Shown here: piece after piece, positions 1,985 through 59,300 of the stretch
Layout of the letters: every line of letters begins with the position of its first letter
Position numbering within the stretch: the first letter of the stretch is position 1
From: Owenia fusiformis
Lineage: Eukaryota; Annelida; Polychaeta; Sabellida; Oweniidae
Assembly (NCBI GenBank): GCA_903813345.2
Contig: CAIIXF020000009.1
Location: 9,854,030 to 9,918,029, forward strand
Length of the DNA: 64,000 bases
Direction: 5' to 3'
Translations under genes and position numbers: made by a program
The notes under the pieces: generated by a model
The model's input: the letters and a program-made list of their open reading frames with translations, nothing else
Databases searched by the model: none
What the model was told of the DNA's origin: nothing

Positions 1985-3907
1985 GTAAGATTTCAAACGA
2001 AAATGTCGATTCCTTTTGGATTTTGAACCGCCGAGGTTTGACTTTGACACCCACTCTCTTGGATCAAGAGTGGATCTGGAAATGAAAAGGAGGAGGGGCA
2101 AAAGTGTCGGCCTAAATTCCTATAAATATGCTCAAAATTAAAGGATAATGGGCAGTAATTCTAATCTGTTTCCTAGATTGTCTAATTATGTGAGGAGGAT
2201 GAGGAGATTTAGGGCCCTGAAATTTTTCGGGCTCCTCCTGAGTGACCCCTACCCCCAGATCCGCCAATAATTTATAATATTTCCGATGAAGATATTCAAA
2301 ATTAATTTCGACAGGTTGATAAGCCAGATCAGGAATGCATATTTGTGTCACAATCAACAATTAGTTATGCTCTCGACACTTAATACAATTTTCATTCACG
2401 TTTGCACGTTGGGAAAAATCCTAGAACACTTTTTTACCATAATTATTATTTAATATTATAATTTGATATTTTACCATGCCTTGGGCCTATTCAATTTGCA
2501 AGTTTAAAGTAAACTTTCTCTTGAAAAAATAAATCATCTGGATTTGTTGAATTTTCTTGCAGAAATCGCTTACTCCCCCTCCACCTCCGTTCATTTTTTT
2601 CCGATCACTGGGCGTGGTTTTAATATACATCTCAGCGAAAGGACAGAATTAGGAAAAAGGTTCTCACACTCAAATTCTTTCAGAGAAGTTGCTGTAATTT
2701 CGTCACAATACAATTATGCATCTATTTCCAAATACTAGTGGGGCCCCGCGTATGTTGTGGCTAATGAAATATCGGTGATAGAGCAAATGTGACTGTATAG
2801 ACCCGAGCCCTCCATATTTATATTATATTTCATTTTATTCATACAATTTTGAAACACAAATCCAGGTTATGTTCTAAATTAAAGGCAGAATCAGATCTAT
2901 GGGGGTGAAAAAATTACAAGCAATGTGTACAATTTACCTACCAATCTATTCCTTACAATCTCAAATACAATGTCTCCAAAAAGATTCACAATATGTTATA
3001 AATAGGTAAAGTTACATAGATTCAAAGTGCAAAAATGCGTGAAAATGTTTAAATTCTCCCAAATAATAAGAATGGTAACCATTCTTATAGAAAAATAATA
3101 CGTTATTGTAAACATCTTTAGTTTTCCTGAAATAAAGTGTGCACTTTGGTAATTTCAAGAAAATGAGCCAGAAATATATTAAAATTGAAAAAAAAAATTG
3201 TTGGGCTGCTCGCTAGATCTGATTCTCTCTTTAATATGTACTTGCTATTAGTTCTAGATGAAGATTGTGGAGTTGACCCTACATATACTGGTGTCAAACA
3301 GCTCATGGCCGCAGATAGGAGAATATTCAGTGCGTATTGTGAACAGGGATGGTCTTATGTACTTAAGAGGGTTGATGGAAGCGAAGATTTTTACCGCACT
3401 TGGGTTGAATACCAGCAAGGCTTTGGTGGCCGCAACAATGAACACTTCATTGGGCTGGATAACCTTGCTAGTATGTTGAGGGGAAGGAGTTACAAAGTCC
3501 GATTTGACCTAACACCGTGGCCAACTAACGTCTCTACTCCTCTCACTGGCTTCGCGGAATACTCCACGTTCGACATGGCGGACGAGAGTGACAAATACCG
3601 AATCAACATCACTGGGTATTCTGGGACAGCAGGGAACGCCATGCTAGTTCAGAACGGGCAGCAATTTTCAACATACGACCGGGACAATGACGTTTCTATT
3701 TCTAACTGCGCGGTTCGTTTTAAGGGTGCCGGGTGGTACAATAACTGTCACCGTTGCAACTTGTTTGGACTGTATGCGAATGGAACACTTTGTCCCAAAA
3801 TGGGACAATGTGTCTCGTGGTTTACGTGGCCAGCACAACTTGCGCCACCGAATAGCAATAACTACGCTTCTTTTAAAGAGGCATCTATGAAGATTTATCC
3901 GATTTAG
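1865..3907 (+). CDS. EGF domain plus fibrinogen-related domain protein, 3' part of gene
   Basis: Two exons (1865-1984 and 3258-3907) join at matching phase 1 to give an EGF-like domain followed directly by a fibrinogen C-terminal (FReD) domain and a stop codon. The upstream exon also begins in phase 1, so the protein continues 5' of the window; signal peptide and N-terminus are missing. Proteins of this build are normally secreted or surface pattern-recognition lectins or matrix proteins that bind acetylated sugars or charged ligands through the FReD; that role is family knowledge and is not shown here. Introns contain satellite DNA on the left and 1.27 kb of unassigned DNA between the exons. 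A possible poly(A) signal AATAAA lies at 4490-4495. The ortholog group cannot be assigned. Confidence 0.85.
1985..3257 (+). other. Intron of the EGF-FReD gene
   Basis: Donor gtaaga at 1985 and acceptor ttctag at 3252-3257 bound 1.27 kb of AT-rich DNA. I see no further exon, no tandem repeat and no clear transposon in it. Short open frames on both strands have no recognisable domain. Confidence 0.7.
3258..3907 (+). CDS. Exon encoding fibrinogen C-terminal (FReD) domain
   Basis: A single 650-bp exon carries the whole domain, about 216 residues, normal for the family. Recognisable blocks in order: DCGVDP at the N-terminus; [20 protein letters not shown] (family pattern YC-x-GW-x(5)-R-x-DGS-x-DF); YRTW and [32 protein letters not shown] (codons 3668-3691), which is the calcium-site motif; [23 protein letters not shown] (normally WWY-xx-CH-xx-NLNG-xY). 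The second W of the WWY motif is replaced by G, and there are extra cysteines in NNCHRC and [10 protein letters not shown], so disulfides may differ from the classical two pairs. The stop is TAG at 3905-3907. Confidence 0.92.
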
Positions 3908-6591: not shown

Positions 6592-7134
6592 TTAAAGAGC
6601 CAACAGCTGCATACCCTGCCCTCAGAAGTGAGGTCGAACGAATGCAAGGAAAAGGGTAGTACTGGCAGTTAGATGCATATAGTAAACAAGTATATGTATT
6701 GTTTATATACACTGTCACAAATAAATATGATAAAATGAGGTATGAATTATATGAATGAATCCTATATCCTATGAACACTCTCTTGAACATATTGTAATCC
6801 ACAGTACATACTTCTAAAAATAAGAATTTTGTAGTTGTAGTTTACAACTTTGACATCCAAGGGCAAAATCAAGTTGCAACAGAGAGAGTTCAATCAAAAC
6901 TCTGTTTAACCAGATTGTGGCTGATACGGAGCAGCAAATAATTTCAGCATTTTCTGAAAACAACTTAACAAGTCCGTAGCAGGTCAACTTTGACCAGACG
7001 ACATGAATTTTCTTTGATGCATCCTGTTTTGAAAACTTCTCATTGTTCTTGAATTGATTTTAGAATTACGAATAAAAGGACATAATAGAAGTTGATGAAT
7101 CTCATCATGATAAACCTGATTTTAGTAAAACAGT

Positions 7135-7665
7135 ACAATAACAGAGTACAGTACTTTAATACAGTACCATTAGTACAGTACTTTAATACAGCACCATTAG
7201 TACTGTACTTTAATACAGTACCATTAATACAGTACTATAATACAGTGTCATTAGTACAGTACTATAATACAGTGTCATTAGTACAGTACTTTAATACAGT
7301 ACCATTAATACAGTACTATAATACAGTGTCATTAGTACAGTACTTTAATACAGTACCATTAATACAGTACTATAATACAGTGTCATTAGTACAGTACTTT
7401 AATACAGCACCATTAGTACTGTACTTTAATACAGTACCATTAATACAGTACTATAATACAGTGTCATTAGTACAGTACTTTAATACAGTGTCATTAGTAC
7501 AGTACTTTAATACAGTACTATAATACAGTGTCATTAGTACAGTACTTTAATGTAGTACCATCAGTACAGTACTTTAATACAGTAATACAGTACCATTAGT
7601 GAAGTACTATAATTAAGTGCCATTAGTACAGTACTTTAATAAAATACTATCAGTACAGTACTGTG
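7135..7665. repeat. Minisatellite of acagtactttaat / acagtaccattagt
   Basis: Roughly 25-30 alternating units of tacagtactttaat, tacagtaccatta and tacagtgtcatta. The array is open in one frame for 143 codons (7092-7523) because the periods are near multiples of three; codons simply follow the repeat, giving NTVPLVQY-type blocks. I do not regard that as a gene. Confidence 0.92.
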
Positions 7666-10467: not shown

Positions 10468-10609
10468 TCACTGCATTGGAGGCTCCACTGGGGGTTCTTG
10501 CACAATGCCCTGAGAGGTCAATGTTTGTTTTAAAAGATTATAAAATGCCAGCTGGTCTTCAGCTTTCATGGCTAGCACGTTTTGTAAAAGTTTTGTGGGA
10601 TTTGCGACC
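10468..10609 (-). CDS. CDS2: CDS gene last exon
   Basis: The exon opens in phase 2, encodes [19 protein letters not shown] and a short Pro-rich tail (EPPVEPPMQ), and ends in TGA at 10468-10470. It matches the NPSKL block at the vertebrate C-terminus. Confidence 0.92.
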
Positions 10610-13600
10610 CTGGAAAAAATCATGGAAACATGAATAAGACATCAATTAAAAAATTTAATTTATTTAACTTAATTAAACCTTTAATTAAAAATGGAAGTGA
10701 AGATCACAAAAGAAACGTAAAATATTTGTTTATCATAAAGATATTCATGTTTGATTTCACTAAATGAAGATTAATCTGGATTTTGAAGTTCTTTTATTGA
10801 AGGCATTATAATATTCTATAAAATTAGCATGAACTTAAAAGCCTTACATAAAACAAAATGTTATCAATTATTATCTATTGTTATATATTATCTAAAACAC
10901 ATTCACTTATATTAGAATCAAGACATCAAGCTTTAAAGTGGTACATTACACTCTGTATCAGGCTTTAAACTGATACATCACACTGTATCAAGCTTTTAAA
11001 GTGATACATCACACTCTGTTAAATACCTTATAAAGCTGTAAAAATATACATGTACATAGGCACCCATGAGGAATTGACAGTCAAACCTATCCATTAGGCC
11101 ACCATGACCTGGTATGGTGTCACCAAAATCCTAGAACACACAACACTAAGCATGCAAGCATATATGATCACATTGCAACATCATGCGAGTCTATATGGTC
11201 ACACATGCACCATAATGCAAGTCTATATGGTCACACATGCACCATAATGCAAGTCTATATGGTTGCACATGCAAACACTGCGAAAGAATAGAATGGTTAC
11301 ATTGTGGACGGAATTAAAGCCTATATGGTGAAACTGGATCACAATGCAAGTCTATATGATCATTATGCATCATTATGCAAGTCCACATGGTCACTGCATA
11401 AGAACGCAAATCTATATGGTTGTACTGCATCAGAATGCATAATTATGTAAGTTGACAGGAAAGGAGGGGGTTAAACACCATGCATAGTTGCAGGTTAACA
11501 TAAATCCAAATTCAGAAATGTAATTGGGGAGCCAGAATACAGTATGGAGGTAACAGAGAAAAACAATAAGCCAAAAGGGAGACCAAAGTCAGTCTGATTT
11601 TTCAAAGGGGCTTTTGCTTTGTATGACATGAACATTTTCCAAATCTGCACTAGGTCCATAAAATTGTAATACATGAATAATATGTCTGGGGTTTTTATTA
11701 CAGAAAATATTTGTTGGTGAGAGAGAGACAATGGACCATGATGAAGCTTAGATTTTATACATGCATATCAAGCAAGCACAAGTCAATATTCTCAATAAGC
11801 CAGGAAATGGCAGGATGCTTAAGACATTATTCCCTTGTTAAAAACTTGACTGGTTTCTATGGGAATGTTTGTAACAGTTTTGATTGGGTAAGACCATAAA
11901 CTGTAAACTTTTGGAATTTGATGGAATAAGATAACAATAAGTATTCAGCACATTAAAAAAATTAAAGCATTAAAATGGTGCACACTTTACATAATAATGC
12001 TTATAAAAGAATAAAACAGATTTCTGGTCATGCTTTAACACAAAACTTAAATGGAGTGCTTTATATTTTGGCAATTGTTTTTTACAACATACATATGCCT
12101 CGTCAAGTTATTCCTTGCTTATTCCTGACATTTTCACTCTTTTTGTGTTAAGAACATGACTAGAATGGCATTCTGTTAGCAAAATAAAAAAAAACAGCAA
12201 CAGAAGACAGCGACAGCATCTGACAACCAAACAAACAAAATCATGCAAAAAATCAACCCATAATAATTCATGATAATTTATTTATGTGGGTTCTTATCTT
12301 TAATCAAAGAAGCATGGGGAATAAGAGCTTATTATACAGGATGGTCAAAAAAATGGAAACCCTGCATTTTCCTCATATCTTTGTCATTTCAAGAAACTAC
12401 TCCCTGATATTTCACACATTTGTAAAACATTGGATTTTCTATCACCCTACCATATTTTATGACCATCAGACTGATAGTCACAATTTTACAGCACTTTGAA
12501 CAACATGCTTCAGGTTTAGCCATCATCACACCGAAGGCAAACCTGCACAGTTGTCAATGACCAAAATACATCCCTCAGCAGGTATGGCCTGAATGATAGA
12601 GATGATCTCACTATTGAGGTCTGCAATTGTCCTGAAGTCATTCTTATACACTCTATCTCTACAATAGCCCCATAGGTAGGGACATTTTGGACGACATATG
12701 CAGGTTTCTCTACAGCCCAATACTAGCCACCGAGAATGTTCTTTAAAGTGCTGTAACATTATGACTATCAATCTGATGGTCATGACATTAGGTAGGCAGA
12801 TAGGAAATTGAGTGATGTACAAATGTGTAAAGTTATTTCTCAAAAAGATATTAGGAAAATGGTGTAAGGGTTTCCAGTTTCTTTGACCACCTGTATATTA
12901 TTTTCAGGGATAATAATTGCACTTTTGTCTTTTGCCAAAACCATCCTTCAAACGAAGGATCACTTATAGGGAGTTTTTCAAGGACTGCATGAATTATTAT
13001 GGGATAGGCAGCCATATTGGTTATTGAAGCATAACATTCAGGTTCAGGGCCACCTAATAAAGCAAATGGAAATAAACATGGACAAAACAGGACATTCAGG
13101 TTTGGGGCCCACCTTATAAAGCTAGAGAAATAAACATGGACAAATGAGCCCATGAGAAGTTGACAGTCAAATCTATCCATCATTCCTCCGTGACCTGGAA
13201 TCAGGTCCCCAAAATCCTAAAAATCATATCCATTTAATAATCATTTAAATGGGTGCATAATATTTATATTTGCAATTTAAGCAAACATATTTTATCCTTT
13301 ATTATATGTCTAAATTGTTTTTGATCTCTCAGAATGATAATATATTGCATCAAATTATTTTACATATAAATTTCAGATTTTTATGAAACAGATAGTAGTT
13401 CATTGAAATGTAAAAAAAAATAGTCAAACTACAATTGATCAATGTATTTATGTATTTCAGTTCGTAAAGCTAAAAAGTTTTATTGATGGTTTTAACTTTA
13501 TAAAAACATCCAGCATCTGATATACTTACTTTTATTTTAAACGCTCTTTTAAAACCACTTGCAAAAAAACCTCCAAATGGTCCTATTATAGATGCAAATG

Positions 13601-16600
13601 TTGATAGTGCAATGGTGTGAAGTGTGAATGGGTACATCTGCACTTTCATAAACTTTAAATTGTATTCTTGTGATGTAAAAGCGTGTGATCTGATGCACTC
13701 CATTGATAAAGTGCCGAGTTCATCAGAATATTCAATCGGACAAACAAAGAAGTCCCATCTCATTAAAATGTTGGAGAGCTGAAAATAAATGTACTGTTCT
13801 GAATAGCTATACACAGGCAATATAATTCGGCGACGTTTTGGCATCGAAAAAATTTGGCGCTGTTCCAGCACGTTGTGTCGACACCGTTCCGGCACTGAAA
13901 CCTTTCGACACCAAAATTTGCCACCGGACTAGTCACCGGACTAGTCAGTCCATTTGGCGAAAATTGGCACCAAAACGGTGTCGAAAATCAGATTGCATTT
14001 TGGGGGTGTAGAGAGAAATAGTGTATCCTTTGTGCAAAAAGATAATGTGTTTTGCAATCTATAGGAGAATATTTGATGATTAAAATTTTTCAACGTTTAT
14101 TTGAAAAATGGCGGGAAATTTGAATATATGAGAAATAAAAGCTGACAACTTTTTTTTGAAAACAATTTTTTCAAACATCTCTAAAATTACTATTGAAGTC
14201 AAGAACATGTAAATGAATGATAAAAACATATTCTTAAACTTTACATGAGGCCTTTAAGAGTGGTATCCTCATATAGCTTACCACAATGCCAAATATCACT
14301 GTTGCAAAAGCACCTCCTAAAAATCCTTCCCATGTTTTCTTCGGAGAGAGTTTAATGAGTGGTGTTTTGCCAAAGAAAAAGCCAAAGATGTACGCCCAAA
14401 TATCATTGCAAATAATCATGGAAACTGGAACAAGGAACCTGAAAATACAAAATACTTTTTGAAAAATAATTGAAGTCCTTTGACGATGGATGCAAAGACT
14501 TAAAGTAATGGTGTCTAAATCTCAAGTTAAATTCACAATTATTATTACCTTAATATAAATATCAGGAAAAATTAAACTACTTTTTGACCAAAATAGAACA
14601 TTTCTAGTTTCTAAAGCTTATCTTGAAGTACAATTTGAGGAGTTGTTATTTACGAATCTGATTGGGAAAGGACAAATCCAGTGATTATCTTTCATTCCAA
14701 TGGTGTAGATGAAGCTCTCTTTTAAGAAGTGAAATGAATTAGGAAAAGGGTAACATACCAGATGAGTCCTTCGAATATGTTCTGCATGATGAGATGCGAC
14801 TGTGTAACAACAATTAACAATGTTACATGGGTCCAACCAAACTGAAATAATGAACATTCAAGAAATTAGGAAACAGTTATTTTGGTTTATTTATTCATAA
14901 TATTACAGTTAAACCCGTATTTAAAGGTAGTGTAGTGTAGGTGTAGGTTACAGCGTACATTCGATACTAGTCTAGCTACGAGCCCTTTTGACCCCCCCCC
15001 AAACACCTCGCCACAAGAAAGTGTTTAATCTAGTAGAGGGGGGGGGGGTTCACAGAGTCTTGGAGAGAGAGTAATATGATATCTTAAAAGGTGATTTTGC
15101 AAGTGTTTCCATGACATTAAACTTACCAATGTGAACTGCTGAAGGTAATGTTTCTTGACTAGACTGAACACGAAGCCCACAAAACCTGCGACATACAACG
15201 AGAATGAGATGAACCTATGGTACGTCACAAATGGCTGCATGAAGTGCTGAAAAGAACAATCATTCAGTGTTATTGCATTTTTACTAAAACGACATGTAAC
15301 CTAAGTAACAGGACAGTAGAGTAACACACAGGACTTGCTAGATGATGTGTCAACAACCCCACTACCCCCCCCCCCCTATCCCCTAAGGGTTCTGCCTCAG
15401 ACAGATCACTAAATTCATTTCATTCATTAAGGCCATTAAGATCATTCAGGTTCAAATTATTACTCGCTCAAAGAACAAATATCGAAATATGAGAATACAT
15501 TTTCCAGTATATCATCTTTTTTCAGTATGGAGTTTACATTTAACCTACTAAGTGCTGAAAAGAACAATCATTCAGTGTTATTGCATTTTTACTAAAACGA
15601 CATGTAACCTAAGTAACAGGACAGTAGAGTAACACACAGGACTTGCTAGATGATGTGTCAACAACCCCACTACCCCCCCCCCCCTATCCCCTAAGGGTTC
15701 TGCCTCAGACAGATCACTAAATTCATTTCATTCATTAAGGCCATTAAGATCATTCAGGTTCAAATTATTACTCGCTCAAAGAACAAATATCGAAATATGA
15801 GAATACATTTTCCAGTATATCATCTTTTTTCAGTATGGAGTTTACATTTAACCTACTAAGATACAGAAAAACATGTTTATCATGACAAGCCTTATCTAAA
15901 TGACCGTTAATATAACTTATTCAGACAGGATTTAGACTAATTTAACAGGTAGACCATAATAATCATCTATGGATAGATGATCAATAAAATCATATACAGT
16001 AAACAATAAATAATAACAAAAAACAACTTGAATAAACACAAACAATAATTGAAAAACAATTGAAAAGAAAATAATCTTAAAACAGTAATTTCCATATTAT
16101 AATACCTGTATAAATTCATCAATGTACATATCCTAAATAAAGCACAATTTATATTAAAATATGAATCTCAATACCAGGTTCTCAAATAGAAATTCCTTGA
16201 ACCCATAACTTTAAAAGTGAAATAAAAATATCAAACATAATATGAAATCAAATGCATCATGGGCAACATTCAATTATGGGTCAGTCAATTTGTTTTCACC
16301 AAGATACATGTGGTATTTCTCATACATTCTGAAATCATAATCACAGGTTCTAAACAGACCTCAACATAATGCGAGCATTTGAGGGTCCATGTTGAGCTGA
16401 ACATACTGCCATGCTCGATAATACATATAGCACCATGCTAAAGACATGATACCATCGAGCAAGCTCACAATATCTTGAAGTCTGATTAATACCTGTGCCT
16501 ATGTTAAGTCCAAAGTAGAATTCATCAATCACTGACTCCTTGCTATACCAACATGCAAACCTAAATACTACAAAATATATTGGATGAAAAAATATTCAAG

Positions 16601-19600: not shown

Positions 19601-22600
19601 TACAGATAAATCAGATTGGCCTTTGATAATGATAAGTCTTATCTCTGCAATCATTGATTGGGTCTTATCTCATTGAATTCATGAGAATATATGAAGATTT
19701 ATCCCATAGTTGAGGTCAAATCTGTTCACTCGTCCAGATATTAATATCAACTCGTGGATAAAAATGATATCTCTCAAAATCATAGGATATCCTATACTTA
19801 TCCAATGAATATGCTGATATTAATGTAATAGTAAATAGCAGTGATTTCTTGATAACATCATACAGAAATAGATGTTAGAGACATTGTTTGGACTTGTTTC
19901 TGTTTAAATGACATTAAATGATTTACGGCCATGCTAATGCTGGATCAATACAAAGAGTTTATTTTAGTAGAAGTCACGAATATAGAAAATATATTTATTC
20001 CCTATCCATTTTCCATGAAACAAAATCAACAGTTCTATATTATCATGATTTATAATTTTAGTTTTATCCGAATTCCTATAAAAAATGCACAAAAGAATTC
20101 AGCCTTAGGTGAGGATTAATCCATAATATAAGTACAGTGAAACTTGTCAAAGTGCAACACCTTTGGCATCTCTAAAGTGTTCCACTTGGGAGGTGTTCCA
20201 CTTATAGAGGTTCATTTAACATTAAGTCAGTTGGTTTTGGGACTCTGAAAAGTGTTCCACAAAAAGAGGTTCCACTTCAAGAGGAAATCCACTTCAAAAG
20301 GTGTTCCACCTGAGGAGGTGTTTCACTTCTGGAGGTATTCCACTTTACAGGTTTCACTGTATAGTGCATTATTATATCACTGCTAGATTTCTGATTGGTT
20401 ATTGAACAAAATGTGAAAAAGACCCTTTCTCTGCATATTTCCAATTCATGAATTCTGATCAAAGAGAATACCTATCAATGATACAATAGAATATTGCAAT
20501 CAATACATGCTGCAAAAATCATAGAATGAAAAATTTGCTTATACCTAATTTTGCAATGAACGCAATGAACTGTATTCTTTGAATGGTTATTTTAAGTTAT
20601 AAGGATGATATCGACTTAAATGTTTACAGAAGTATGATATTCCAAAATATCAATTAATTATTAACCAATCAAAATGTAGGATTCATAATAAATGTGCAGT
20701 AATTAAAATACCTACCGGTCTTGACAACAGCACTCCAAAATAGTCAATCATACTTTCTCCGAAGAAAAAGTAATTTGACGTGACCAGGAAATACCAACTT
20801 AGGGTACGGAACCACGGAAGGTCATGTGATTTGTAGACTTGGTAGCCGATTGTGATGATCTCGTGGAAACATTTGATTTGCAGCATCAGTATCTAAAATG
20901 AACAGTTTATTTGAATATTAATTTATTTCGATAAATATTTATATCCCACACATTGTTGTACATTTTTCATGTTTAGGAACTTTTGTGGCTTGCTCCTTTG
21001 ATTGATGCACTTTTTGGTTTAAAAAATTTCTTTCTTTTCCACATTTTGCTTTCTTATTTCAAATTTAGCAACCTCTGAATGAATCACTAAATTAAAAATT
21101 ACCCTCGCTTCATTTTAGGTTATGCCTGGACTAGTAAAATCAAGGTGAGTCTGTCCCTAATAATATATGTGCTTACATAATATATTTAATACATTTATGT
21201 TATATAAAATATTCTCCACTGGATTTTTTCTTAAAGGGTTCCGATTAGCATCCCGTATAAATACAATATGGCGGCTCCAGGCGAATCAACTGGATCAGTC
21301 CATTTTTAAGAAATAAGGGGAGTTCTGTAAAATCCAGTTTATTGAAATTGTCTTTGAGATAAAGTAATCCGTTTATAATGATTTTGAAAATGTTATCCAA
21401 AGAGTGATTGCGTTCAAAGAATACATGTACAACAGCCAATATAAATCCTTGTATTAGAAACCGGTTTGTCTTGCTTTGTTTCATTTGTAGGATATTTCAT
21501 ATGCCAAGCTGTGTGCTATTACGTTATGGGGAAATTTAGATGCCAATTTTTCCTTATTGTACACAAATAGAAGATCCTGAAACTTCACCCATAAATGTGG
21601 AATTGATTTGTCAAAATAAAAATCACCCTTTTATAAATGTGTCGATCTATAATATACTTATGCTATATAACAGTTAGAGGTGTTGACACAACGACCTCGA
21701 ACCTGTGAACCCTTGAGTATTATTCCGGGATCAGGCCTTTTATACTTAACGGTGAGCAACACAAGAAACGAGCGTTTGATTTGCTAAACGATATGCGTCA
21801 CCCTTTAAGTGGGTGCAAAATTCTCATCTTCACAATTCCAGTGTTCGCGTTGACGCCGTTTTTTCTAGTTTTTACGGAAATTTCAAGAGGTCGGACGGAA
21901 AAATCAGAAACAACTTACGTCCCTGGGACGCAAAGATTCTACACCACCATCAGGTAACTTTTACTGCAGCGTAGAAGTGATAAAACATGATTGTCCGAAG
22001 AATTTTCAAATCGTCTACTTCCTTGATCTCGATAATGTTTATGTCAGCAAATCTGATTGGCTACCGAAGTGTCTCAGTATATTCGCGGGGTTTCTAGTCT
22101 GAAACGCAGCATTTGATTGGCTATGGTGCCCTCCGAGTCATTCCGGAGTATACCGAAGCTGGATAATCTGTTGTACGCAAACATTAGTTTCAAAATTGAG
22201 AATTGGGATTTGTTTTTCATGATAATCTTAATTACTTCCACTAGGAACCGTTAGATATCGATCTAATGTTATACATCAATATAATTATTTAATGATAGCT
22301 CGTTTTTCATCTAAAAGTCGTCAGAGTAAGGAGAAATGTTAGAAGAAACAAAAAGTTCACGACCTTGAAGATCGCTGGTTGGTAAAATGTGAAAACAACT
22401 CTTAATTTGAATATTTCTTTCATTCATTTCGGAGAATTTTGATATAACATTAGTAAAGAATTGTGTGAAAAGGACCAAATGATAGATATTTATCGGGAGA
22501 ATGCATAGAATTACAATATATGTCATTTTTATCCCGTTTTAGCGGAAGCACTCTATTATCGCCCACTTTACTTTCACTTTATAACAAAATATGAGGGACG

Positions 22601-25600: not shown

Positions 25601-28600
25601 GAAGGAGTGATTAAAATTTGAAAAATAACATGTGACCCTATTGAGGGTTGCAGCAAATTTCCAAAGATGCACCCTGATCTTAACCTTTTTTCAAAATATT
25701 TTTTAAGTAGTATCCATCGGTTAAGATTGGATATCACGTCATAAGGATCAGATATGATTTTAGTGGCGCATACCAAAATTATCTGGTGTCATTATCCCCA
25801 TATTTATCTTGTATCCATCGGATAAACCAAATTATATGTCATAGCAGGGCATTTAATGTGATAAAATGTCACTACCTGGTGAGCGAGAGAATGTTGCGCA
25901 AAACTGTAAAGTACATTTACTGCATAACAAGTTTCAAAATTCTAAAAAGCCCCCTAAAAAGTTGTTGCAGTCGCACTAAAAAAATAACAAAATCCTCCAC
26001 CCAAAATCCTGAGGAGAGCTGCGTTATACCTGACTATACAAATATCTAAAAACTGGAATATTTTAATAAACTTATGACTTCGTATCTCATACTTGAGTGG
26101 GTTTAGGGTATATATCATATCTGAGGAGTGAGCAGGGTATATTGTATCACTAAAGCTCACCACCTCAGTGTTTTCCATAATGCCAAAATACTCCTGACAA
26201 TTCAATTACATGTGCCTCCGAAAATATTAAATAAAAATGGTGAAATCTTACTATTGCACAAAAAAATTAGAAAAGCCTAGAATGTTATGCAAAGTTGTGA
26301 AAAACAAGTACAAGTAATAAACAAGTTTCTAAATTTTAAAAAATAACAAAATCCTCCACCCAAAATCCTGAGGAGAGCAATACAAATATCTAAAATTTGG
26401 AATATTTCAATAAACTTATGACTTCGTATTTCACATATGCTCCCAGATAACAATTTTGGTCAAGTTGTGTTCTGATAGATAGACATTTAAATATTAACGA
26501 AACTGAAGTTTAGAACTTGTTCACCTACAGTAAACCTGGCTTAGGGAGCACTCTTTATATCCAACACTACCTTCAAAAATGTATATTTGAAGTATTTTGT
26601 TTTATTTTTGTTTATATTAGAAACATGTCACTATTTTAACTACTTTTTCCTTCAAAAATCAGGGATAATATAGAAATTCACAAGGAAGATGATTCAAATT
26701 GTGAGCCTTTGGTAAAAATTTGGGCCTATTTTTATACAATTTAAGGCTCATTTAGTACATAAGACTATTTTATAAAAATAATAACGTCCAAAATAATTGA
26801 GGTTCAAAAAACTACAACAAGTGAACTCGTTTCTTTTGAATAAATGGTTTTCAAATGTGACAGTTTCACTGTACATACAGAACAGTCTGAAACTCCAAGA
26901 TAAGGTCAACACCAAGCAAAGATAAACTTTGAAATGAAACCATAAAGCACACACCATGGTAAGTATATCCCTCCTAGAGTTTGACAATTCTAACTTGCAT
27001 GTTGGACCATGTCAATGTTTGACAATTTTCAAAAATTCAAATTTAATACCAAGAGGTCATAGTATCTAACTGGAAGTCAGTAAAGCCTTCAAGGATTTCA
27101 CTAGAATTTCTCACAACAGGCAAAATAAATGAAAACAATTTAAGCTTGGCCTATAATGCCTTTAGGCGATTGGCAAGCCATTCCATGTAAATTTAAATGT
27201 CATGAAATAAACTGATTATCATATAAAAAATTAAATAAAAATGAAAACAATAGGCAAAATTAATGGAAGTCATGAATTTAATACGGAAAAACAACAGGCG
27301 ATTTTGTTAAAACGACAAGTGAAAATCGCCTATTGCCTGCTGCTAATGAAACCCCTGGCCTTTCAGGCTTTTACATATATTGACATCATCACATTTAATA
27401 TACACATGTATGAATAATCATAAAACACCTGATGGACTTTGTTTTTGGAACTTAAATGAGTACAAAGTGATTTATAGGTCAATTTGTTTATAATATGGTA
27501 AAACTTCACAATGCCATGAACTTTGACACCAAACATTGTCAGATGAGTATGGCTTGGGTTGGTATTACCATGCAGACAAGCATACACGAGTGCCAATGGC
27601 AGGCCCATAGCCAGGATTTGCCAAGGGGGGTTCAGTTTTCTAAACTTCCCAGGGGGTTCACATTTGACAATTTTGGCCCAAATATGTCTAAAATTACTTG
27701 AGAAGTGCTCAAAATGGTGAAAAACTGCATGATTTTGAAAGAATTTTTGGCCAGGGGGGGGGGGGGGGGGGGTTCGCCCGAACCCTGGCTACGGGCCTGA
27801 GAAGTACCAATGTTAAAACCAGATGAAGAAAATGAAACATTTACGAGTACAACTATTCAAAGCAAACTATGAACTGCTTACTTTGGACTTTGGCTCAACC
27901 AACAACACAGATAAATATGAGTCGATGTTTATGTAACTGAATTGACAAAATCAAAAGTTAATTATGACAAGAGCTTAATAATCTGCAACATGCATATAAA
28001 ATTTCCCAAACGACTCACATACTTAGAACACCTTGAAATGTGAACACCTATGAACACTTTTGGCTGGTCCCAGAGGTGTTCAGATTAAACAGTTTTAGTG
28101 TATAAGTGTTCTATCATAATTTAACTTACCAAGAGTACTAATGCTAAGGGCCCCATATAAATTATAAAGCCAAAGCCGAGAATCATCACCCATGAAAATA
28201 TCCCTCGGATTATCCAATTTCTCCATCTGAAAAAGAAACAATATATCAGCTCGCGGCATTATTGCTTTGCATAGGACTCCGTAGAACAAAGGGTGGTGTC
28301 TAATAATCAATGGTTAGTTTCATTAGGGGGAGGGGATAAACGATGGTTCTTGCAAATAGTGCTGATTTTTAATATTCAAGTAAAAGACAAATCAACATTT
28401 TAAAATTTTGTTAGATGAGTGGAGGGGGGGGGGTTAAACCGTAAGGAAATTAACTTCATTTTTCCATGAATGTCAATCATTGGACACATTATCCATAACT
28501 TGTATTAATCTGAATCTGTTATGAGTTTATTTTGATATTATCAAGTATTTTGCTTTATTGAGGTGAATACTTGTCATATTTACAAATATAGGGATTATAA

Positions 28601-29884
28601 TATTATAAATGGTTCAGCATATTTGCTCCAGTTTGTGCAAATAAATCTTGAAATATTAATGTATGTATGTGTCATCTCTTTTATATATGTTATTCCTTTA
28701 ATCTCAGAGTGAGAATTCATGCATTCTATAAATCTTTGTTAATCTAATGTAATAAAAATAATAATATAATATAAATTCTTTCAATCTTAAATCGTATATC
28801 TGCTTCAAACGGGCTTATTAGCCCTTTGCAGATGACTGACACAGATAACTTAAAAGTAAAAAGTATATAAAACAGACAGACGGACAAACAAGTAGAGCAT
28901 TACAAAAGCTTATCGATGTGAGCTAAAAAATGATACCTGGGGGTCAGATCTTTTAGTGCTGAGTCAAGAACGTCGGTTGTTTTTCCTGTGTCCTGTGGCA
29001 GACTTGAAGCTGCATTCAGATCTATCATGTTATCAGGGTCTGTGATGCCCTCTTCATCCTTTGTGCTTTCTGGGTTATCACCAGTTTCTTTGGTAGGCTC
29101 ATTCTAAAAGAAGACAATTTTATGTTCATAATGATATTATCACACACATATTTCACTACTTTTTGATCCGAATTTTTTTTCTTGTTCCTCATATTTATCA
29201 ACTGTTAACTTGATAACAGACACGCATATATCCTATCCTATATATCTTATCACAGTGATATTCCTTGGCCATAGTTATCAAATTAGACAACTAAACTGGA
29301 TACCTATTTAAAAAGTTACTCGACTTTTTTTGCAAAAAAACTTTCACAAAGTAACAGTCGCATGAATTCACATTGTCGCACTTACAAAATGATTCACAGC
29401 CTAACTTCATTGCACCATCGAACTCGGTAATATTGTCCACTTAACTAAAAAACTGGGCTTGCTTTTCAACATTTCAAGCGAAAATTCTCTATGGAGCTTT
29501 TGTTTTTTCTGCAGATTTTGCAGATATATTCCCTAAATTATTGTCGCTTTTATATTTAACACAGCAAAGTAGCAGGGATGGTACTACAGGTGTAACTCCC
29601 GAGTCCGTAACTCGAGAACTCGTCAGAGCTGCCTATACATTGCCTCGAGTTGTCCTCTAGAAACTCGAAATCTATTTCAACTCGTGAGCTAGCTTTAACT
29701 ATAACCCTTTATTTGACTAGCCCATTTCTAAGGCTAAGAAATTTGAGAAAATTATCTGACACTGCTAAAGAAAATGAAAAATTGGAAAATCCACATAAAT
29801 CAACATATGTTTTCTACAATAAAACCTCACCTGATTTTGTATTTCAGATGTTCCGTCCGTTTGTCGTTGTCTTACTTCTGACAT
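10468..29884 (-). CDS. CDS2: Phosphatidate cytidylyltransferase (CDP-diacylglycerol synthase)
   Basis: This enzyme converts phosphatidic acid and CTP to CDP-diacylglycerol in the ER membrane, the precursor of phosphatidylinositol, and it is a multi-pass protein. Ten coding positions joined in phase give about 449 residues; human CDS1/CDS2 have about 445-461. Landmarks in order: MSEVRQRQ start; [11 protein letters not shown] before the first membrane segments; [124 protein letters not shown] then D-F-G-D-x-IPGHGG-x-MDRFD. The last block fully meets the CDS-family signature. The C-terminal VANPTKLLQ block aligns with the vertebrate end. The signature exon occurs twice (see the exon entries). 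CDS1 versus CDS2 cannot be decided; the single invertebrate gene is usually co-orthologous to both. Confidence 0.96.
10921..11012. repeat. Short tandem repeat beside alternative exon 9b
   Basis: Three copies of about 30 bp of gctttaaagtggtacatcaca. They lie directly past the donor of exon 9b in the direction of transcription. Confidence 0.75.
11027..11130 (-). CDS. CDS2: CDS gene exon 9, version b (alternative catalytic exon)
   Basis: A second 104-bp exon of identical length and phase encodes [11 protein letters not shown] then [12 protein letters not shown] and [10 protein letters not shown]. Acceptor ttctag and donor gtattt are intact. It differs from version a at about six residues, none of them the invariant signature residues. 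Because 104 is not a multiple of three, including both would break the frame, which argues for mutually exclusive use. Confidence 0.92.
11150..11440. repeat. Tandem repeat, ~32-bp unit, upstream of exon 9b
   Basis: About eight imperfect copies of gcaagtctatatggtcacacatgcaccataat. The array fills the intron just upstream of the 9b acceptor on the minus strand. Confidence 0.85.
11460..12330. other. CDS intron, unassigned
   Basis: AT-rich intron DNA between the two exon 9 versions. I see no exon and no clear repeat. Small frames at 11495-11899 have no domain. Confidence 0.5.
12337..12893. mobile_element. Deleted transposon with ~160-bp inverted repeats
   Basis: The left end caggatggtcaaaaaaatgg and right end ctttgaccacctg are inverted, flanked by TA on each side. 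The inverted repeats extend about 160 bp (tgaccatcagactgatagt pairs with actatcaatctgatggtca). The middle keeps a piece of transposase on the minus strand. TA borders and the protein remnant place it in the Tc1/mariner/IS630 superfamily. It lies between the two exon 9 versions. Confidence 0.8.
12529..12690 (-). pseudogene. Transposase C-terminal remnant (IS630/mariner type)
   Basis: The minus-strand frame contains [20 protein letters not shown] followed by [15 protein letters not shown]. This resembles the FLWGYLKxxVYxxxPxTIxxLKxxIxxxIxxIP tail of DDE transposases from mariner-like elements. The DDE catalytic core is missing, so it is a relic. Confidence 0.65.
13035..13150. repeat. CDS2: 58-bp tandem duplication covering the exon 9a donor
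   Basis: Two copies beginning cattcaggtt at 13035 and 13093. The right copy holds the last codons and donor of exon 9a; the left copy repeats them with changes and has a second donor-like attag/gtggcc. Confidence 0.88.
13113..13216 (-). CDS. CDS2: CDS gene exon 9, version a (catalytic signature)
   Basis: The 104-bp exon (phase 0 in, phase 2 out) encodes [11 protein letters not shown] then [12 protein letters not shown] and [10 protein letters not shown]. Acceptor tttttag and donor gtgggc are intact. It completes the H-G-G-x-x-D-R-x-D signature. A 58-bp partial tandem copy of its end and donor lies just downstream (13035-13092). Confidence 0.93.
13530..13778 (-). CDS. CDS2: CDS gene exon 8, [18 protein letters not shown] block
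   Basis: The 249-bp exon (83 codons, phase 0-0) encodes FVCPIEYSD, a variable loop, [19 protein letters not shown] and then FKRAFKIK. The last residues are the first half of the CDS signature, completed by whichever version of exon 9 follows. Confidence 0.95.
13826..13990. repeat. Imperfect palindromic element
   Basis: ggcgacgttttggcatcgaa on the left and ccaaaacggtgtcgaaaa on the right form an inverted pair around repeats of ttcgacacc and ccggactagtca. Probably a worn MITE in the intron between exons 7 and 8. Confidence 0.5.
14282..14438 (-). CDS. CDS2: CDS gene exon 7, SPKKTWEGF block
   Basis: The 157-bp exon (phase 2 in, phase 0 out) encodes [20 protein letters not shown] and [13 protein letters not shown], two of the strongest family motifs, thought to line the nucleotide/lipid site. 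Confidence 0.96.
14759..14841 (-). CDS. CDS2: CDS gene exon 6, FGWTHVTLL block
   Basis: The 83-bp exon (phase 0 in, phase 2 out) encodes [18 protein letters not shown] and NIFEGLIW, nearly identical in pattern to vertebrate CDS. Confidence 0.95.
15127..15246 (-). CDS. CDS2: CDS gene exon 5, YHRFISF block
   Basis: The 120-bp exon (40 codons, phase 0-0) contains [17 protein letters not shown] and SLVKKHY. Its acceptor lies at the left border of a perfect 308-bp tandem duplication, so a second copy of the acceptor exists upstream near 15554. Confidence 0.95.
15243..15858. repeat. Perfect 308-bp tandem duplication at the exon 5 acceptor
   Basis: 15243-15550 and 15551-15858 read identically, including a run of 12 C. 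The unit begins inside exon 5 (agtgctgaaaag) and contains the acceptor and its pyrimidine tract. It is either very recent or an assembly artefact. Confidence 0.95.
15860..17910. other. CDS intron 4, right part, unassigned
   Basis: AT-rich intron DNA. I see no exon, transposon terminus or tandem repeat in it; open frames on either strand lack domains. Confidence 0.45.
17920..18055. repeat. Minisatellite, ~30-bp unit
   Basis: About five imperfect copies of gcaaacagatttttggcagg with variants such as ctaacagaattttggctgg. Confidence 0.75.
18543..18770. mobile_element. MITE with ACTGTACTTC ends, 228 bp
   Basis: Left end actgtacttcgacttaat pairs with right end ttaagaagaagtacagt read in reverse. 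The interior repeats words such as ccgccaaattaagtagc and contains the palindrome ggcgaattcgcc. Confidence 0.75.
18911..19409. repeat. Tandem repeat, 100-bp unit, five copies
   Basis: ttgtttcagttaaaactg recurs at 18911, 19011, 19100 (shortened by about 10 bp), 19200 and 19300. Units contain gctagctcataagaattc and ggcaaagtgcc. Confidence 0.93.
20135..20359. mobile_element. TA-flanked MITE with GGTGTTCCACTT repeats, copy 1
   Basis: Ends cagtgaaac and gtttcactg are inverted and flanked by TA. The interior holds many short copies of ggtgttccactt and gaggttccactt. Related copies lie at 32118-32293 and 54938-55151, with a fragment near 28017-28098. Confidence 0.8.
20716..20892 (-). CDS. CDS2: CDS gene exon 4, [10 protein letters not shown] block
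   Basis: The 177-bp exon (59 codons, phase 0 at both ends) contains [13 protein letters not shown] and [11 protein letters not shown]. Of two possible donors, gtaggt after SRP keeps phase 0 and gives exactly the vertebrate spacing to YHRFISF in the next exon. Confidence 0.95.
20893..21670. other. CDS intron 3, left part, unassigned
   Basis: AT-rich intron. A 26-bp interval near 21119-21144 is flanked by plus-strand acceptor-like and donor-like words, but it is too short to call an exon. Confidence 0.45.
21675..21815. repeat. Dispersed repeat, inverted copy at 48160-48290
   Basis: cgagcgtttgatttgctaaa and cctgtgaacccttgag match, in reverse orientation, tttagcaaatcaaacgctcg and ctcaagggttcacagg near 48.2 kb. 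Confidence 0.75.
21838..22684. mobile_element. Inserted element with CAGTGTTCGCG ends, 847 bp
   Basis: Ends cagtgttcgcgtt and agcgcgaacactg are inverted. The flanks share caattc on both sides, a 6-bp duplication of the host repeat. Inner words acgtccctgggacgc and tgcgtccctgggact form part of the subterminal region. No transposase is seen. Confidence 0.75.
22700..23420. mobile_element. Fold-back element with ~350-bp arms
   Basis: gtggtatcgatatggagaac near the left end pairs with ggttcgccatatcgatacc at the right. The arms continue inward, e.g. caaaggaatttttggttgat against atcaaccaaaatttcctttg, with a loop near 23041-23075. Non-coding. Confidence 0.75.
24109..24303. mobile_element. CAGGCCC-type MITE, inverted copy
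   Basis: Reverse-orientation copy containing gagcacttctcaagtgattt, tttgggccaaaattgtcaaa and ending tggcaaatcctggctacagg cctg. The left end lacks a clean terminus. Confidence 0.8.
25145..25296. mobile_element. Palindromic MITE of the gataaa...tttatc type
   Basis: gataaatagaggatatccta and atcatagaatatcatatttatc are inverted ends; inner arms include tttttatccatgagtggat and atccaagagtggataaaaat. Related fragments occur near 8925-8970 and 19740-19805. Confidence 0.65.
25540..25700. repeat. Dispersed repeat shared with 31013-31170
   Basis: Both copies contain cttttctaggcacat-like start, tggggaaggagtgatt, tgaaaaataacatgtgac and gatgcaccctga in the same order and orientation. Confidence 0.75.
25905..26440. 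repeat. Direct duplication, ~365-bp spacing
   Basis: aacaaaatcctccacccaaa followed by atcctgaggagagc and later aataaacttatgacttcgta occurs at 25984-26080 and again at 26344-26430. A diverged tandem duplication in CDS intron 3. Confidence 0.8.
26441..27110. other. CDS intron 3, unassigned
   Basis: AT-rich DNA with no visible exon or element. Confidence 0.45.
27112..27356. mobile_element. GGGTTTCA-type MITE, inverted copy with insert
   Basis: Its right end gctgctaatgaaaccc is the reverse of the start of the 43398-43546 copy (gggtttcattagcagc). Words such as aacaggcgatttt and caacaggcaaaataaatgaa recur. About 95 bp near 27141-27236 are absent from the other copy. Confidence 0.65.
27602..27801. 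mobile_element. CAGGCCC-type MITE with a run of about 20 G
   Basis: Begins caggcccatagccaggattt and ends ctggctacgggcctg. Contains a long uninterrupted G run near 27755-27772. Confidence 0.82.
28130..28226 (-). CDS. CDS2: CDS gene exon 3, first membrane segment
   Basis: The 97-bp exon opens in phase 2 and encodes [18 protein letters not shown] and [12 protein letters not shown], matching the first transmembrane region of the family. It ends in phase 0 at gtaagt. Confidence 0.93.
28937..29103 (-). CDS. CDS2: CDS gene exon 2, acidic N-terminal region
   Basis: The 167-bp exon starts in phase 0 after cttttag and ends in phase 2 at gtatca. It encodes an acidic, Ser/Thr-rich cytosolic tail ([18 protein letters not shown]) that leads to the conserved RWRNW block. 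Confidence 0.88.
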
Positions 29885-56300: not shown

Positions 56301-59300
56301 ATCTATTCTGATCAAAAATTATTCTGAATAAGTATGTTCGATGAACAACGTACAGAGGATAGTAACTGATAAATGAACATTTCTCATCTTCCATAGACTT
56401 CATTGTTAATAACTAAGGACTCGACATTCACCTGGAAACTAAAAATATTTTGCCACCCATGAAGCAAATTTAAATTAATTTTTTGCTGCTTAATAAATGG
56501 TCAATGGCAGTCACATTGAGTTCGATAAGTATCACTATTCAAACAAGTTACCTTGAAATATCAAGATGTCATACTTATAGAACTCAATGTGACTGTCATT
56601 CACAGTTCATTAAGCAGTAGAAAATTAATTTGCTCCATGGGTGACAAAATATTTCAAGTTTCCCGGTGAATGTCGAGTCTCGCATCATACGAATGTAATT
56701 TTAGGTGATCTGTCTGCATGGTGTGACTTTATGAGCCTACAATAATATATGCTCTTTCTTTTGTTTACAGGCGTATCAATTAACTATAACAATGGTATCC
56801 CACAAATCCTTGTACCTCTACCTAGTAGGCAAGAACGTTGTCAATTCACATTAAAACCGCTAGGGAACACAGTAGGAGATTTCATACAGTATCTCCAGGA
56901 CGAGGATGGAGGAATTGACAGAGCTGCCATCTATTCAGAAGGTAGGAGATGATATTCATTTTAACACATTAGATTATTCAATTTTTTAGCCATGAAGAAT
57001 GATCTCAAATGAATACATAGTTTACTTCATCACATGACCAATATTAACCAATCAGGTTGTTGCTAAAATTGCTACTATGGTAACCAGGTTGTTGCTAAAA
57101 TTGCTACTATGGTAAGGCTTTGTTTAAAAAACCTCCTACCTCATACCCACCTACCCACGTACGTTGGACATGATACAGTCTTTGAAGGGTTCTATTTTAA
57201 AGATTTAGTTTATTTAATCTTAGTTTATGATGAATTATAGATGCATTTGTAACGACCCTCAACTACTACAGCGCAGCTGGGTTCGATTTCTACTCGGGCC
57301 ATCGAATTTAGCACACTTTCTTTCAATTTCTTTATCTGGCTTGTTGGACCTATGCTCGTGGTCGTTAGTTAGTTATTCTCCTGGGGCACCCTCGGGTCAT
57401 TACACATTACAATGCACCCATATACCTTTATTTATGGTTCTGTCATTCGTGTAGTCATAAAATAAAGCCGGTATTGTAGAAATGTTAATAATTAGAGCTA
57501 TTTTTAGATTTAAAAATCTTTAAAATTAAACCCTTCAATGACTGTATCATGTCCCACGTAGGTGGGTAGGTGGGTGTGAGGTAGGAGGTTTTTTATACAA
57601 AGCCCTATGGTAACCAGGTTGTTGTTAAAATGGCTACTATGATAACCCATTGTGACTTTACCCAGGACAATTTATTTGTTATGTACTGTCACAAGGATGC
57701 TCCAGTTAAATACCATGCTACGGTTAAATACCATAATACAATTAAATACCATGCTACGGTTAAATACCATAATACAATTAAATAACATGCTACGGTTAAA
57801 TACCACAATACAATTAAATACCATGCTACGGTTAAATACCATAATACAATTAAATACCATGCTACGGTTAAATACCATAATACAAATACCATGCTACAGT
57901 TAAATACCATACTTTCAACACTTTCAGATGGTCTACGGGTGGCTAAATGTACAGATATTGCAACTCTACTACAATCAAACTTCAGGCTAGAACTCAACGA
58001 TAGAACATATAGCGTCACCTCACCACCTATAGGTAAGAGGCAGGGAAATTACAATATGTCTCTCGATGAAATAACATTTCATTCATAGCATTGATCTTGT
58101 TCCACTTTAGTACACAATAACATGGAGATATGATGGTTTTTGTCTATTAGGGATTTTATGTAATTTTCATCAATGTAATTTTTTTAAATTTTTTATTGAA
58201 CTCAATGTAACATATTTACAGGTTGTTGTGGCTATGACCCCCAAGAGGGAGTATTAGGTGCCACATAATGTAATGGCCATAATTACCAGTAATTTAGGTT
58301 ATATCAATATTTACGCATTCTTCTGGAAAATATTTCTATTATGATTAAATGTTGACATACCATATCTCCAATTTTTTCACAAATTTTTCAAAGTTGGAAT
58401 CCCCTTAATGTAATATTGTATTGCAGGTCCTATAGATCATGATGACTTAGTGCAATTATATGATGTGAAATCTCTGCTGTCAAAACTGCATTCTACATTA
58501 AACGTGGAAGAGCACCAACTCCAAAGGGAGCGAGACCTCATTAGCAAGCTAGAAGACCTAAAGGTTGAAATTGAACCTCTAGAAAAGGTATTTTAAAACT
58601 TAAAAATGATAATAAAGTACATATATTTTGGGAGGGTGTTCAAACAAATTTGGTTTCATTTTGGATTATTCTCGATGACTTGATTTGAAAATGTTAATTT
58701 GCATTTCACTAAAAACGACATTTTTCATTCATGAAGTTTTCATTTATCCATTCCTGAAAATCGTTGTTCTTTGACAATTGTTCGCAATGGGACACTGTCC
58801 ATTATAAACACTATCCATTATAAACACTATCCATTATAAACACTATCCATTATAAACACAAATCAAATGACTTACTCATTATATTTTACCAGCTTCTTAG
58901 TGTTGTTTAGTCAAGGTACAATGAGAGCCCTCTCTTCATGGCTAGATTTATTTTTCAGGCCAAAATTATTAAAAATTCAACTATTTATTGGCTAAATTAA
59001 TAAATTATAATTAACAAAAATATAATAATGTCAATCGCCCTGAGGCATTACAGACATATTCACCAATAAAGAAAATCCATATCAGGCAGAAACTTGATTG
59101 GAAAAAGTGTAAGAGGCAAATTGTTAAATGTGAAACTGTATCATGCACATCGCTCCAAAACGCAACATGTTGACATATATTGTTTTTACATTTTCAAGCT
59201 CTAATATAAAGTTTCTGTAAGTAAAAATTTTTTTTTCTGTGTAATATCAAAGAACAATCATTTAGTTAAAAAAAATAAAAAAGTGAGTGTGGGATTTGAA

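Follow-up and report, generated by a model that had tools for sequence, protein, structure and literature searches.

Two homologous versions of the active-site exon in the CDP-diacylglycerol synthase gene of the annelid Owenia fusiformis are probably used in a mutually exclusive manner

Introduction

CDP-diacylglycerol (CDP-DAG) synthase is an essential enzyme and the gateway to phosphatidylinositol and cardiolipin, and its family signature is given in the accessible portion of PMC7018664 as KDX5PGHGGX2DRXD. In the annelid locus considered here almost the whole of this signature is encoded twice, by two neighbouring exons of a single gene. The question raised by this arrangement is whether one gene may supply the animal with two CDP-DAG synthases by exchanging a single exon and, if it does, whether the few residues that distinguish the two products have any bearing on the choice of lipid substrate. 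The analysis covered a window of 64,000 nucleotides (positions 9854030-9918029 of contig C9) and the 498-Mb assembly of 525 contigs to which it belongs.

Results

The minus strand of the window carries a CDP-DAG synthase gene running from 29884 to 10468. Its model was built by tblastn with a human CDS1 sequence, combined with splice sites and phases, and comprises ten coding exon positions that encode 449 amino acids, the stop codon lying within exon 10. The ATG, donor and phase of coding exon 1 (29831..29884) fit the model, with the start codon assumed at 29884; exon 2 (28937..29103) was placed by phase and splice sites, and exon 3 (28130..28226) by these and by tblastn. All three lines of evidence likewise define exons 4 (20716..20892), 5 (15127..15246), 6 (14759..14841), 7 (14282..14438), 8 (13530..13778) and 10 (10468..10609, stop codon included). 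Position 9 is occupied by two exons of 104 nt, 9a (13113..13216) and 9b (11027..11130), both with AG/GT borders and an open frame. They are separated by 1,982 nt, while the intron between exons 8 and 9a measures 313 nt and that between 9b and 10 measures 417 nt.

Whichever of the two is included, the 449-aa protein matches the PF01148 (CTP_transf_1) profile over positions 2-264 of 264, scoring 246.8 bits for the 9a isoform and 242.9 bits for the 9b isoform against a cut-off of 24, and the profile also matches each exon separately (39.7 bits for 9a, 38.8 bits for 9b). By the full profile match and the signature either isoform is a CDP-DAG synthase of the eukaryotic type (CTP_transf_1) with predicted activity. 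A search of the assembly with PF01148, in which an absent match does not prove the absence of a gene, gave five rows at the locus and one row elsewhere, on contig C3, under the family cut-off; a protein query of the assembly returned 9b, exon 10 and 9a, plus one row elsewhere at E 4.7.

Exons 9a and 9b are homologous neighbours, compatible in length and phase (0 in, 2 out), with intact splice sites and no in-frame stops, the borders being gatttttag/GAT ... AAG/gtgggc for 9a and tgttctag/GAT ... AAG/gtattt for 9b. The preliminary description of this DNA had reported just such a pair, and its coordinates, phases and splice sites were all confirmed on the minus strand. The likeness of the two is not due to chance (blastn E 5.8e-21): they differ at 22 of 104 nucleotides (15 at third, four at first and three at second codon positions) and at six of 34 residues, which agrees with the earlier count of about six. 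These are, in the order 9a/9b, L/T at site 5, M/L at site 12, L/F at 20, S/A at 24, F/Y at 25 and S/Y at 31. Of the ten coding exon positions, only exon 9 occurs in the window in two full copies; for the other nine no second copy was found there at E 0.01 or better. The similarity between 9a and 9b extends only a few bases beyond the exon borders, indicating that the duplication is old, and we regard it as highly probable that the locus is the animal's CDP-DAG synthase gene and that its exon 9 underwent an old tandem duplication.

That the pair is an artefact of assembly or represents collapsed alleles is scarcely credible. A perfect tandem duplication of 308 bp does lie nearby (15242-15860), its two copies spanning the exon 5 acceptor and the first exon bases and leaving an identical second acceptor upstream of exon 5; it may be recent or an assembly slip. 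The exon 9 copies, on the other hand, are 21% divergent in sites, each has a single match in the assembly, and their similarity halts at the exon borders.

The pattern of substitutions points to selection on the pair. When 22 random changes were placed on 9a, six or fewer residue changes were obtained in 0 of 200,000 trials and a stop was present in 48%. The dN/dS ratio, a check proposed at the outset, is 0.065 (bootstrap 0-0.18, from 5,000 resamples of 34 codons in which those with unbounded dS were scored 0), indicating purifying selection; the underlying NG86 estimates are dN 0.10 and dS 1.58, the latter imprecise and close to saturation. A copy that had been neutral throughout would be expected from simulation to show on average 17 to 26 residue differences, and in 4,000 runs at every one of four divergences six or fewer were never reached. 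As these neutral-drift simulations demonstrate, both exons have been constrained through most of their joint history, which is compatible with a recent loss in one copy, given that the pair statistic averages both copies and could let a recent relaxation of one pass.

This bears on the idea that one of the exons is a relic whose use was lost lately and which decays without visible damage as yet. In the simulations with a total divergence of 1.0, a copy that drifts freely for the final 5, 10 and 20% of the time still passes in 55, 33 and 7% of runs, so a late loss is tolerated by the data, and the middling splice sites of both exons (see below) would also fit. But drift over the last 30% passes in 1.4% of runs and loss for half of the time or longer in just 0.05%, and the frames and all splice dinucleotides are intact in both copies. 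Furthermore, 9a and 9b each differ from human CDS1 at nine of 35 residues; being equally far from it, neither looks degenerate or stands out as the odd one. We hold the relic explanation to be improbable.

The frame arithmetic of the locus admits one copy of exon 9 per productive mRNA, since inclusion of both or of neither truncates the frame. The mRNA 8-9a-9b-10 meets a stop at nt 1243, as the preliminary description had anticipated in saying that joint inclusion breaks the frame; the last junction is at nt 1312, so that the stop lies 69 nt upstream of it. If both exons are skipped, the 8-10 mRNA stops inside the last exon, at nt 1153, and encodes 384 aa without the PGHGG/DRFD block and hence without the catalytic Asp. 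The full-length frame can accordingly contain just one of 9a and 9b. Such a stop ahead of the last junction is also what would be expected of a poison exon, the second copy serving through double inclusion and decay to lower enzyme output. A poison exon, however, needs no complete catalytic frame, while both exons keep one under the low dN/dS reported above, and PF01148 recognises 9a alone as well as 9b alone; this explanation is very unlikely.

Splice-site strength was scored with a model built from the gene's own sites. On this scale the donor of 9a (5.7) ranks 32nd and that of 9b (4.4) 78th among 1,037 GT sites, beating four and two of the eight constitutive donors, respectively; the acceptors (9a 3.6, 9b 4.7) rank 118th and 83rd among 949 AG sites and beat one and two of the eight constitutive acceptors. 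The predicted U1 pairing energies of the two donors (9a -8.8, 9b -5.7 kcal/mol) lie within the range of the eight constitutive donors (-5.3 to -11.6). The sites of both exons thus appear usable without being strong. Modest splice sites are frequent in regulated exons. In this one species pairing between introns did not stand out against ten shuffles: the best values for three intron pairs (-44.0, -44.2 and -38.1 kcal/mol) were each equalled or exceeded by one of the ten and were not counted as evidence.

Ahead of the 9b acceptor (11151..11484, minus strand) there are five sense-strand copies of TGCATG, the motif of Fox-1-type factors, the sites here being candidates. No denser 350-nt group exists on either of the window's strands, where the next groups have three, and none of 500 Markov resamples of the gene reached this density. 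With the shorter motif GCATG another place, at 57714, is equally rich (6 and 6), and the TGCATG copies lie inside a tandem repeat, so they are not independent. Runs of three TGCATG in a row number 1,226 + 1,212 genome-wide, versus 157 + 126 for the reversed control. An RBFOX-like exon is present in the genome as one match, 80% identical along residues 38-72 of the 78-residue query. Taken together these data give a hint, and nothing firmer, of Fox-1-type control before 9b, comparable TGCATG arrays being common in this genome.

Several repeats surround the two exons. Exon 9b is flanked by degenerate tandem repeats with a unit of 31-32 bp (10925-11019 and 11152-11439), which differ in sequence and are alike in period. 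A 58-bp tandem duplication (13034..13144, minus strand) covers the donor of 9a together with the exon's 3' end, and a 33-nt partial copy adjoins 9a. The duplicated donor was considered as a decoy and rejected: the resulting 163-nt extended exon misfits exon 10, whether alone or with 9b behind it. The frame of 9a itself continues past the donor for a total of 121 codons (12851-13216, minus strand), so that an mRNA retaining the intron would encode a long alternative C-terminus. The intron that separates 9a from 9b contains a 571-bp palindromic, MITE-like repeat copy with inverted arms and no assigned strand (12330..12900). Its search of the genome gave 1,303 first-look candidates, of which 40 were scored; the scored relatives lie on many contigs, and in direct orientation the identity of the other 39 copies scored is 87-89%. 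Judged from this identity, the palindromic repeat would be much younger than the synonymous divergence of the exons.

At the protein level exon 8 ends in ...FKRAFKIK, whose final K is the K of the signature KD; exon 9 starts at the D and contains PGHGG and DRFD. The signature KDX5PGHGGX2DRXD is whole with 9a and with 9b, so that every signature residue is kept, as claimed at first sight of the sequence. None of the six differences falls on an invariant motif residue: two (sites 5 and 12) occupy free positions inside the signature and four (sites 20, 24, 25 and 31) follow it, which upholds the earlier placement of the differences beside the catalytic site and downstream. By alignment, Asp17 of the exon corresponds to chain residue 269 of Thermotoga maritima CdsA, that is, to Asp249 at an inferred offset of 20; with this offset positions 219 and 249 are both Asp, and the Gly of eukaryotes falls at 219. 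The available text of PMC7018664 gives Asp at 219 and 249 for T. maritima CdsA and Gly at 219 for eukaryotes, and in both annelid isoforms, aligned to T. maritima CdsA at this offset, the metal-binding Asp249 is kept and Asp219 is replaced by Gly.

For comparison with bacteria, 42 CdsA loci were taken from genome contigs, of which 39 fitted the motif expression and entered the count, three being dropped. In these 39 fragments, a sample biased to Alphaproteobacteria and including near-identical rows, site 5 is Leu in 29, Ile in five, Val in three, Phe in one, Ala in one and Thr in none, and site 12 is Val in 22, Phe in seven, Leu in five and Met in five. T. maritima CdsA has Thr at site 5 and Met at site 12. 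Human CDS1 has Thr and Ile at these sites. Clustering of the four later differences on one helix face was considered and dropped: three of them lie within 40 degrees on the helical wheel (P = 0.16, not significant). Two scans of viral contigs for related loci gave none, and the scan of genome contigs returned bacterial records only.

Other features were noted in the window and the assembly. On the plus strand of the window, a 246-codon open frame (3167-3907) encodes a fibrinogen C-terminal domain (PF00147, E 1.6e-45). Short repeats of the kind CAGTACTTTAATACAGTACCATTA form a long array at 7100-7660, which is open for 144 codons in one frame and implies no gene. Eleven homeobox matches fall within 0.5 Mb at C1:17970457-18468338 and were read as a compact lophotrochozoan Hox cluster; among the 11 of 12 homeobox loci read there are presumably a Lox5, whose homeodomain is followed by KLTGP, as well as genes of Lox2/Lox4 and Post2 type. 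The annelid erythrocruorin linker family has three assembly matches above the cut-off. The Hox genes point to a lophotrochozoan, and with the linkers probably to an annelid. Searches for COX1 and for mollusc haemocyanin gave no match; as all 14 controls of the haemocyanin search were silent too, neither result bears on the phylum.

Discussion

The exon structure of this gene, the coding capacity of both copies of exon 9 and their conservation are matters of direct observation. Mutually exclusive splicing that yields two active isoforms is the likely and, in our opinion, the best reading of them, and as an explanation of the whole locus, with exons 9a and 9b giving two full-length enzymes, we hold it with considerable confidence. 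The mutually exclusive use suggested by the preliminary description stands as far as the genome can carry it, through the equal length and phase, the splice sites, the break of the frame, the purifying selection and the lack of a second family gene above the PF01148 cut-off in the assembly; as to the use of both exons in RNA, their mutual exclusion, the decay and the regulation, we infer these from the same features.

The productive mRNA would run from exon 8 through one of 9a and 9b into exon 10, and the outcome would be two full-length enzymes that are six residues apart in and just past the active-site motif. Exclusivity may not require any pairing of the RNA, for the double-inclusion mRNA would be destroyed by nonsense-mediated decay. 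Such decay could by itself account for exclusivity, on the assumption that in this animal it follows the 50-55-nt rule. An mRNA with neither exon would give a truncated protein devoid of the catalytic Asp. The middling splice sites of both exons would leave scope for a tissue-specific regulator, which may perhaps be a Fox-1-type protein acting before 9b.

Whether the two enzymes would differ in function is a separate matter. The swapped exon encodes the catalytic Asp and the beginning of the membrane helix that comes next, and the gene might in this way make two CDP-DAG synthases with different preference for phosphatidic acid; we view this as possible and rather doubtful, and a difference between the isoforms in substrate preference or rate is speculative. 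Were it true, splicing, and not gene duplication of the vertebrate style, would determine, according to tissue or condition, which acyl chains phosphatidylinositol or cardiolipin contain. Provided that the exons are mutually exclusive, there is an even chance that both are used and the isoforms are catalytically equivalent, the pair having been retained either by drift or for the control of amount, timing or place; this is opposed to the lipid-preference reading alone. Equivalence would agree with the absence of any difference at an invariant motif residue, the close PF01148 scores of the two isoforms, the freedom of site 12 among bacterial CdsA and the insignificant helix-face clustering. Against it, site 5 adjoins PGHGG and among the 39 bacterial fragments has Leu 29 times and never Thr, so that Leu versus Thr is perhaps non-neutral, although T. 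maritima has Thr; and the coq-2 precedent (PMC7434440) shows that a few residues in a swapped exon can alter the product. Two natural isoforms with six differences in one 35-residue block and the rest identical would allow a clean test of the residues that matter.

Two versions of CDP-DAG synthase per animal are also found in vertebrates, as CDS1 and CDS2, but there they are two genes, whereas here one gene has a pair of exons (PMC7018664, in its accessible text). In the same text human CDS2 is selective, human CDS1 is not, and rat CDS1 was selective in another study; as these reports on CDS1 selectivity disagree, the analogy with CDS1 and CDS2 itself rests on conflicting data. It also mentions two transcripts for Drosophila CdsA and alternative splicing of two Arabidopsis CDS genes.

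Tandem-duplicated, exclusive exons are a known architecture (PMC9741552 and PMC5740500). The human tandem duplicated exon substitutions of PMC9741552 share the architecture seen here, with a homologous region swapped, the remainder identical and mostly conservative changes; CDS1, CDS2 and cytidylyltransferase have 0 occurrences each in its main text. In line with the preliminary remark that such exons were unreported in this family, we found no report of an exclusive exon pair in CDP-DAG synthase in those papers of the open-licence literature that our searches listed; a pair annotated in a database and undiscussed in papers may exist. The duplicated exon 10 of the oyster alternative oxidase (PMC5589949, available part) is likewise tandem, lophotrochozoan and situated around functional sites; it differs in that its exons are terminal and carry stop codons, that one variant has both exons, and that its use was shown by cDNA.

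The nearest functional precedent is given by exons 6a and 6e of coq-2 in nematodes, parasitic helminths, annelids and molluscs (PMC7434440, in the portion available, as for what follows). In both systems two homologous internal exons, used one at a time in coq-2 and probably so here, would remodel the core of a membrane-bound enzyme of a lipid pathway. For coq-2 the exclusive use and the switch of product were proven by RNA and by exon removal, with RNA evidence that includes annelids and molluscs, while the CDP-DAG synthase pair is known from sequence. It would add, after coq-2, another lipid-pathway enzyme with active-site exon swapping in animals: exclusive duplicated exons are established as an architecture, and their occurrence in CDP-DAG synthase appears to be new.
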